NCBI RefSeq assembly: GCF_000024365.1
Contig: NC_013235.1
Span: 310,001 to 374,000, forward strand
Reading direction: 5' to 3'
DNA: 64,000 bases
Source of the DNA: Nakamurella multipartita DSM 44233
GTDB taxonomy: Bacteria; Actinomycetota; Actinomycetes; Mycobacteriales; Nakamurellaceae
The notes under the pieces are model-generated. The model was given only the letters and a program-made list of their open reading frames with translations. It made no database searches and was not told where the DNA came from. Of the stretch, positions 58,286-58,796 are shown in pieces (the first letter of the stretch is position 1; the number at the start of each line of letters is the position of its first letter). The translations under genes and the position numbers were made by a program.

Positions 58286-58330
58286 GTGGTCCTGCCCACG
58301 TTGACCGGCCGGATCGTCCAGCAGTACGGT
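58286..58330 (+). promoter_or_regulatory. Promoter of the first CxxxCxxC micropeptide gene
   Basis: TTGACC (58301-58306), an 18-bp spacer and TACGGT (58325-58330, TAnnnT type). A 15-bp element directly upstream (GTGGTCCTGCCCACG, 58286-58300) is repeated with two changes before the second micropeptide gene. The -10 box ends 44 bp before the ATG. Confidence 0.75.
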
Positions 58331-58374
58331 CGTTATGTAAAAGCTGGTGGGGAATGACGGGACGAGGAGAAATC

Positions 58375-58452
58375 ATGAACGAGCAATTGCCGGTGGAATA
58401 CACCGACTGCGCGCTGGACTGCCTGTACTGCAGCCTTCCGGAAACGGACTGA
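58375..58452 (+). CDS. 25-residue CxxxCxxC micropeptide, copy 1
   Basis: ATG at 58375 with GAGGAG 5 bases upstream. The peptide begins MNEQLPVEYT and ends DCALDCLYCSLPETD. Three cysteines at 12, 16 and 19 form C-x3-C-x2-C with Tyr before the last, the same spacing as the [4Fe-4S] loop of radical SAM enzymes. There is no signal peptide and no membrane segment; the peptide is acidic. A second gene 344 bp downstream encodes a peptide identical at 19 of 25 positions. I know of no family. Candidate roles: metal or cluster-binding mini-protein, RiPP-type precursor (no maturase nearby), or a regulatory peptide. Both copies have their own promoter, so they are probably expressed separately. Confidence 0.75.
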   Translation: MNEQLPVEYTDCALDCLYCSLPETD

Positions 58453-58468
58453 CCGCTGTCCGTTCCGG
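58438..58468 (+). terminator. Hairpin overlapping the stop of micropeptide copy 1
   Basis: CCGGAAACGGAC / GTCCGTTCCGG form an 11-bp stem with one bulged A and an 8-base loop that contains the stop codon. It may end the transcript or stabilise it. No U-tract follows, only TTGG. Confidence 0.55.
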
Positions 58469-58618
58469 TTGGTCATCCTCCGGAAAGCGAAATGTAACAT
58501 CCGGGAAACCTGGCCCGCCTGGCCGGTCGGGATCCGTGTTTGTCGGCGAGAGTGCTTGTTTAGCAGACGATGTCAAACTTCAAATGGCGGCCGGGTGAAC
58601 GCCGTGGGCGGTGTCCGG

Positions 58619-58663
58619 GTGGTCCAGCCCACATTGACCCGACATTCGTGAGCCGGATACGGT
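58619..58663 (+). promoter_or_regulatory. Promoter of the second CxxxCxxC micropeptide gene
   Basis: TTGACC (58634-58639), an 18-bp spacer and TACGGT (58658-58663). The stretch ending at the -35 box (58619-58639) matches the one before copy 1 at 19 of 21 positions, while the spacers and 5' leaders differ. The -10 box ends 55 bp before the GTG. Confidence 0.75.
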
Positions 58664-58718
58664 TTTGTTCAGCAGGGCCGCAGGATATCAAAGTAGATTT
58701 TAATTTGAGGAGCCGAAC

Positions 58719-58796
58719 GTGAACGAGAATTCACTTCCCGAGTACGCCGACTGTGCCACCGATTGCCTCTACTGCAGCCTGCCCGAGACCGACTGA
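58719..58796 (+). CDS. 25-residue CxxxCxxC micropeptide, copy 2
   Basis: GTG at 58719 with TTGAGGAG ending 6 bases upstream. The peptide begins MNENSLPEYA and ends DCATDCLYCSLPETD. Compared with copy 1 it keeps the start MNE, the EY pair, all three cysteines and the last eleven residues. Within the conserved positions at least eight codons carry synonymous changes (TGC/TGT, GCG/GCC, GAC/GAT, CTG/CTC, CTT/CTG, CCG/CCC, GAA/GAG, ACG/ACC), which is the mark of protein-level selection. The leader between promoter and start is AT-rich for this genome. The next gene begins 142 bp later and has its own ribosome site. Confidence 0.75.
   Translation: MNENSLPEYADCATDCLYCSLPETD

Follow-up and report, generated by a model that had tools for sequence, protein, structure and literature searches.

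A scattered family of actinobacterial micropeptides with a conserved cysteine-bearing C-terminal tail, including a tandem gene pair of Nakamurella multipartita DSM 44233

Introduction

Several described systems share parts of the organization reported here. RiPP precursors of the prochlorosin kind are encoded by many paralogues per genome; leader and arrest peptides of the TnaC kind are encoded by short open reading frames (ORFs) with conserved residues just before the stop codon; and the CLE-type peptides of plants consist of a variable front and a short conserved C-terminal motif and are encoded by many dispersed genes. Three cysteines with an aromatic residue before the last are also found in the cluster-binding loop of radical SAM enzymes, such as PqqE. 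To our knowledge, no described bacterial family consists of many unlinked short genes that have nothing but a C-terminal tag in common.

In this study, we analyzed a 64,000-nt stretch of the genome of N. multipartita DSM 44233 (contig NC_013235.1, forward-strand positions 310,001 to 374,000; hereafter the window). A preliminary description, made from the letters of the window, had drawn attention to two 25-codon genes whose peptides were suggested to form a new family under selection. The two genes belong to a conserved protein family whose apparent functional unit of about 10-16 residues lies at the very C-terminus, and is small enough to escape annotation.

Results

Both 25-codon ORFs are found in the window with their start codons 344 nt apart, and the good ribosome sites ascribed to them are borne out by a GAGGAG box located 5' of each start (Table 1). 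Their peptides have the same residue at 19 of 25 positions, with the GTG start of copy 2 counted as Met, and contain Cys12, Cys16 and Cys19 as well as Tyr18. At least eight synonymous codon differences had been claimed for the pair, and nine were found (E8, C12, A13, D15, L17, L21, P22, E23, and T24). Within codons 15-25, all six substitutions are silent (P ~2e-5 with simulated random substitutions), which, together with the alternative codons used for the conserved residues of the family, shows purifying selection on the amino acids. The position before Pro is occupied by Leu in both copies, where the family usually has Gly. With copy 1 as query, a search of the same genome returned two strong matches (E 1.8e-13 and 1.2e-7); the third match (E 0.15) was a CALRCLYCQNPDT stretch inside a 279-codon ORF, which we take to be a radical-SAM-like motif.

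Table 1. Positions in the window of the micropeptide genes and their associated sequence features
Feature	Position	Strand	Remarks
Promoter-like block, copy 1	58289..58330	+	GTCCTGCCCACGTTGACC, 18-nt spacer, TACGGT; exact match of shared block
Ribosome-binding box GAGGAG, copy 1	58364..58369	+	read from sequence
Micropeptide gene 1	58375..58452	+	25 codons + TGA; ATG start; MNEQLPVEYTDCALDCLYCSLPETD
Family tail C-x-Y-C-x-x-P-E-T-D + stop, copy 1	58420..58452	+	family motif
Imperfect inverted repeat spanning copy 1 stop codon	58438..58468	+	possible terminator; read from sequence
Promoter-like block, copy 2	58622..58663	+	GTCCAGCCCACATTGACC, 18-nt spacer, TACGGT; exact match of shared block
Ribosome-binding box GAGGAG, copy 2	58707..58712	+	read from sequence
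Micropeptide gene 2	58719..58796	+	25 codons + TGA; GTG start; MNENSLPEYADCATDCLYCSLPETD
Family tail + stop, copy 2	58764..58796	+	family motif

The conserved DNA reaches upstream of both copies, where GTCC[TA]GCCCAC[GA]TTGAC is followed by C, an 18-nt spacer and TACGGT. The whole 6.06-Mb genome (a contig of 6,060,298 bases) contains the block GTCC[TA]GCCCAC[GA]TTGAC exactly twice. Because the same block precedes each copy, the two are regarded as separate genes with promoters that look alike. An inverted repeat of the type found at copy 1 was not seen at copy 2; the 65 nt around the former fold with -26.5 kcal/mol, in a pairing that differs partly from the repeat. No Rfam family matched the window at gathering thresholds. 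The five neighbors scanned were a luciferase-like monooxygenase, a flavoprotein of the pyridine-nucleotide-disulphide-oxidoreductase type, a 74-codon ORF that matched nothing, a membrane protein of the PGPGW type and, at a distance of about 1 kb, a Na/H exchanger. They are unrelated to one another and to the peptides, and, as had been stated for the pair, none of them was recognized as a maturase, protease or peptide exporter.

Profile searches of actinobacterial genomes identified homologues in Nakamurella, in Micrococcaceae and in another family of the same order as Nakamurella (f12). They support the proposal that the pair represents a new family under selection, which is far larger than the two copies show. 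A search of 61 related genomes with one copy as query gave weak matches only, two of which later proved real; both lie on the reverse strand, in frames that end ...CDDDCVYCSGPETD-stop (G008) and ...ECPPDCDYCAGPETD-stop (G040). A four-row profile was then run on 397 genomes of the order and added members in G027, G001, G013, and G012. Scanning of a collection of 84,980 species with the exact DNA pattern for C-x-Y-C-x-x-P-[EQ]-T-D-stop yielded 118 stretches, of which 112 were in Micrococcales, one was in Nakamurella and five were elsewhere. The Micrococcales stretches came nearly all from Arthrobacter, Pseudarthrobacter, Paenarthrobacter, Sinomonas, Kocuria, and Yaniella, with one from Gulosibacter, and Pseudarthrobacter sp. 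HLT1-5 had five in one genome. The five stretches outside Micrococcales and Nakamurella (L057, L059, L087, L114, and L173) were dropped as chance matches before any counts. The collection does not include every carrier, because pattern-fitting members of G001, G027, and G040 are missing from it. Two Micrococcaceae loci (L191 and L201) carry tandem member pairs inside one 3-kb stretch, as in the window.

Unforced counts were obtained with a 34-row profile from which the stop codon was omitted. At E up to 0.005, 36 of 245 Micrococcaceae genomes had a match, at 57 places in total and at no more than four per genome. The tail was found in seven of the 17 Nakamurella genomes, or six of 16 besides the window genome (G000, which has two copies; the others are G001, G003, G008, G009, G012, and G013), and in two of the five genomes of family f12. 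A class-wide draw of 394 genomes gave four matches at E up to 0.01, one of which (L178 of G746, E 9.7e-4) is not tail-final and was not counted as a member, because its frame runs on past the motif. Also left out of the counts was a sequence of G005 (L215/L233; C1 ~3801264-3801296) that reads QCHCCQGPETD-stop and was taken as a probably decayed copy; it lies beside the same convergent gene as the copy of G001, with a transposase-like ORF close by. The unforced counts in Micrococcaceae, Nakamurella, f12 and the class-wide draw therefore show that the family is scattered and accessory.

The family is apparently undescribed. Eight members had no match in Pfam and NCBIfam at E up to 1, and PADLOC and PHROGs gave no significant match for members, the one PHROGs match (E 0.23) being taken as chance. 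None of the titles and beginnings of abstracts listed from the literature describes the family. A search of genome contigs and viral contigs with the two-copy alignment returned 22 and 8 raw stretches, respectively, none of which was confirmed by tblastn at E 1e-3; the DNA pattern of the family was not found in viral contigs; and tblastn with two members, a method insensitive for such short queries, gave no match in plasmids.

All 57 Micrococcaceae places were read individually, and each of them ends with C-x-[YF]-C-x-x-P-E-[TS]-D directly at the stop codon, with a search model that contained no stop. The residue before the last Cys is Phe in 11 of the 57 and Tyr in the rest, and Thr is replaced by Ser once. 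The distance to the first Cys is variable: among 54 distinct Micrococcaceae sequences, the spacing is x3 in 26, x4 in 12 and x5-x9 in 14, while the first Cys is lacking in two. The 113 stretches of the pattern set have, unforced by the pattern, an upstream Cys in 109 and Gly in 96; Glu is found in all 113 although Gln was allowed, and TGG stands in place of the stop codon in none. The Nakamurella tails vary in having Phe for Tyr (G003 and G009), Gln for Glu (G013) or Leu for Gly (G000).

The conserved residues of these 113 Micrococcales and Nakamurella members are encoded by four codons each for Pro, Thr and Gly, and by two each for Glu, Cys, Tyr and Asp. Because alternative codons are used so freely, the constraint lies on the amino acids. 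The codon proportions of the tail are near, not equal to, those of the background of neighboring genes (e.g., GGA 25% vs. 13%). Tail Glu favors GAA (73 of 113; 65% vs. 44% in the background) over GAG, the codon preferred by the background. RNA folding after the stop codon gave a mean z of -0.57, with 6 of 62 contexts below -2, compared to -0.45 and 10 of 62 for an upstream control window. The DNA downstream of the stop is little shared among contexts, the exceptions being a few related groups (e.g., L072/L115 and L078/L084/L146). A function at the RNA level was rejected on the codon variation and the lack of a fold signal. The codon variation, the absence of excess RNA structure and the scarcity of shared downstream DNA therefore place the constraint on the C-terminal residues.

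Peptide starts and gene calls were made with custom scripts rather than a gene finder, and the lengths are therefore estimates, with a median of 44 residues and quartiles of 29 and 51. The front part has a high content of A, P, T, R, and S; its N-terminus and length vary, and it is nearly absent in the shortest members, which are estimated at 16-18 residues (e.g., MTECPEDCHYCCGPETD). The unit under selection is the C-terminal tail [C-x(3-9)]-C-x-[YF]-C-x-[mostly G]-P-E-T-D, ending at the carboxyl terminus. As the front ends differ while the tail is nearly the same, the tail itself probably does a job. These results establish that at least three actinobacterial lineages have a micropeptide family that is under selection and anchored at the C-terminus.

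The pattern GCATCC-N15-17-CGTC[CT]-N6-11-ATG has 38 matches in the 17 Nakamurella genomes, compared to nine for the backwards pattern. Five of the 38 end exactly on the start codon of the peptide (G001, G003, G008, G012, and G013), and G009 has only a weak look-alike (GCACCT-N14-CGTCT). The gene setting of the peptide differs among these Nakamurella, with G008/G012 and G003/G009 each seeming, by eye, to share one. In form, the element is ECF-like, resembling the promoters of ECF sigma factors, and transcripts from it would be leaderless or nearly so. It was not seen at the window copies, and it occurs in 1 of the 62 nonredundant contexts, where 0.5 was expected. A common Micrococcaceae promoter was rejected, as no clear shared motif was seen in the 62 nonredundant contexts. 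One GC-rich gapped pair, CCGC-N18-CGCC, occurs in 8 of the 62 (1.6 expected), and the enriched 7-mers, of the GACGACG kind and AAAGGAG, are interpreted as peptide codons for Asp and as a ribosome site, respectively.

These 62 nonredundant contexts derive from the 110 of 113 loci with enough upstream DNA, the other three being left out. Flanks without a called gene of at least 90 aa (4 upstream and 9 downstream of the 62) were excluded. The next upstream gene of at least 90 aa lies on the same strand in 44 of 58 contexts, and the next downstream one on the same strand in 31 of 53 and on the opposite strand in 22 of 53. The copies sit at many unrelated loci, and no gene was found to adjoin all of them. 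The upstream same-strand genes within 700 nt (n = 36) included, among the matches listed (25 of 43 Pfam families, some of which share one protein), aldehyde dehydrogenases (7), citrate-type carriers (4), flavin amine oxidases (3), dicarboxylate symporters, DAO oxidoreductases and amidohydrolases (2 each), and a proline dehydrogenase, a glutamate dehydrogenase and a gluconate permease (1 each). Downstream, where 23 of 29 genes were scanned and six were omitted by hand, the matches listed (25 of 34 families) included a single aromatic amino acid lyase, a single PAD_porph hydrolase and amino-acid permeases. The theme of the Micrococcaceae neighbors, catabolism of amino acids, amines and organic acids, is a lead rather than proof, because Arthrobacter genomes are rich in such genes.

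A small ORF, here called c0 (41-120 residues, mostly 71-81 aa; e.g., L074:2839-3051, L115:4021-4236, and L078:811-1077), lies directly upstream of the peptide in 27 loci, where its stop codon overlaps either the first codons of the peptide or a candidate start codon. A c0 profile built from genes of these same loci gave 40 matches in the loci, 37 of them within 250 nt of the peptide; they fall in 11 of the 62 nonredundant contexts and show both gene orders. Genome-wide, c0 was found in all 20 peptide-positive Micrococcaceae genomes tested (2-14 copies each) and in 7 of 14 peptide-negative ones (1-8 copies). It was not found in 14 Nakamurella and four f12 genomes, with only 114 first-look candidates scored in 17 of these 18 (the exception being G006). 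Two c0 members had no significant match in Pfam and NCBIfam. The AlphaFold2 model of c0 is five-stranded, with a mean pLDDT of 78.5, and Foldseek found nothing in the PDB below E 0.001. The best chains (E 0.01 to 0.07), which we take to be mostly small SH3-like barrels, belong to Glu-tRNA amidotransferase, IsrB, a ribosomal protein, an Scd6/Edc3 complex and Tudor proteins, with a TM score of 0.75 by target length for the Tudor domain of PHF1.

Discussion

The reading that we favor, at a probability of about 0.45, is that the window genes encode micropeptides of an undescribed actinobacterial family that would act in trans via a metal- or thiol-bearing C-terminal tag. The downstream gene varies and often lies on the opposite strand, which suggests action in trans; the conservation extends as far as the final residue, which suggests docking by the free C-terminus; and a Cys pair is joined by a third Cys at a flexible distance, which suggests metal or thiol chemistry. 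The free C-terminus (GPETD-COOH) would be docked by one cellular partner, and two or three adjacent cysteines would carry the chemistry, either as a metal site (Zn or Fe-S) on which Tyr or Phe packs, or as a dithiol that reports the redox or electrophile state. It is the cysteine content that points to such a metal or redox role. Produced from a number of operons, of which many are catabolic in Micrococcaceae, the peptide would give one common output to the partner; the same output would come from ECF-like promoters in other Nakamurella and, in N. multipartita, from a tandem pair with promoter-like blocks of its own. Counted against this explanation are the accessory nature of the family, the Leu in place of Gly before Pro in the window copies, the lack of a common neighbor gene and the departure of the tail codon proportions from those of the background.

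A wider version, which we consider doubtful, is a distributed peptide-output network, in which unlinked operons would each encode a different micropeptide with the same Cys/Tyr-Cys-Gly-Pro-Glu-Thr-Asp tag and one receptor would read the tag. Such a receptor might sense the free C-terminus of the tag together with its metal or thiol state, and might sum which catabolic or stress programs are on. The organization can be likened to that of the CLE-type peptides in its variable front, short conserved C-terminal motif and dispersed genes, but the analogy is one of organization only, as the present family is bacterial, has no hydrophobic signal seen by eye and is without a known receptor. The conserved unit recurs at several loci in a genome and is maintained at the level of the peptide. 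From its invariant carboxyl end and its cysteines, a C-terminal binding partner and metal or redox chemistry are predicted, which could be tested in soil bacteria such as Arthrobacter.

The preliminary description had likened Cys12, Cys16, Tyr18 and Cys19 to the CX3CX-aromatic-C loop of radical SAM enzymes, and the family as a whole retains one half of that likeness. An aromatic residue precedes the third Cys in all 57 Micrococcaceae places, but the CX3C spacing is found in the window pair and 26 of the 54 distinct sequences, while the other 28 do not fit (x4-x9 in 26 and no first Cys in two). A self-contained [4Fe-4S] peptide mimicking this loop would accord with the aromatic residue, with the CPLRCPYCS loop of PqqE as the only match of the tail profile in the PDB (E 0.24, with E up to 10 allowed) and with the third-best match in the N. 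multipartita genome, yet we regard it as quite unlikely. A strict copy of the loop is disfavored because the spacing of the first Cys varies, and we know of no radical SAM counterpart of the GPETD end. Moreover, the family differs from radical SAM enzymes in being short peptides without a barrel, consistent with the estimated median of 44 aa and the lack of Pfam or NCBIfam matches, and in having the motif anchored C-terminally and followed by GPETD-stop. A radical-SAM-like loop is one possible form of the putative metal or thiol site. Another reading is a RiPP-type precursor or scaffold, whose tail would be recognized by an enzyme encoded elsewhere that modifies Cys or Tyr, or that makes additions to the C-terminus or cleaves it. 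As in the prochlorosin kind, one recognition-like segment is common to many short genes of a lineage, and this segment contains Cys and Tyr and is conserved up to the last residue. In contrast to those precursors, however, the conserved segment is C-terminal and itself carries the cysteines, and there is no obvious core, because the variable part is of low complexity and nearly absent in the shortest members. No maturase was seen among the five scanned neighbors of the window, and no recognized peptide-modifying enzyme among the matches listed for the Micrococcaceae neighbors (25 of 43 upstream and 25 of 34 downstream families, from 36 and 23 genes). We hold a RiPP-type role to be unlikely.

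The position of the tail would also suit a nascent-chain regulator of the TnaC kind, in which ribosomes would stall on the tail at the stop codon and neighboring genes would thereby be controlled in cis. The ORFs are short, the N-terminus is free and the conserved residues fill the last 10-16 codons, directly before the stop in 57 of 57 places; some members also lie shortly before a same-strand gene, such as that of L113, which is followed after 29 nt by an aromatic amino acid lyase family gene. Such regulation is nevertheless improbable, since the paralogues are scattered and have no consistently placed downstream gene, the next gene being on the other strand in those 22 contexts and likewise in Nakamurella G001, G003, G009, and G012, and since no excess RNA structure follows the stop. 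As a general rule, a leader for the downstream gene was rejected on the 22 opposite-strand contexts. About as improbable is a role as an accessory component, in which the peptide would be in a complex with c0 and solitary copies would rely on c0 proteins produced elsewhere. The overlapping gene arrangement, the closeness of the c0 matches to the peptide in both orders and the presence of c0 in every peptide-positive Micrococcaceae genome tested are consistent with such a complex, but c0 is also found in half of the peptide-negative ones, was not found in the Nakamurella and f12 genomes as scored above, and looks, by eye, reduced to its first codons at a locus that keeps the peptide (L137); in addition, the closeness was measured with a model built from the locus genes themselves.

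Besides c0, further types of small genes recur near the peptide. They include cluster c21, with 65-83 aa (L060, L126, L130, and L148), and cluster c54, with 47-53 aa and a membrane-like appearance by eye (L079, L083, and L124).
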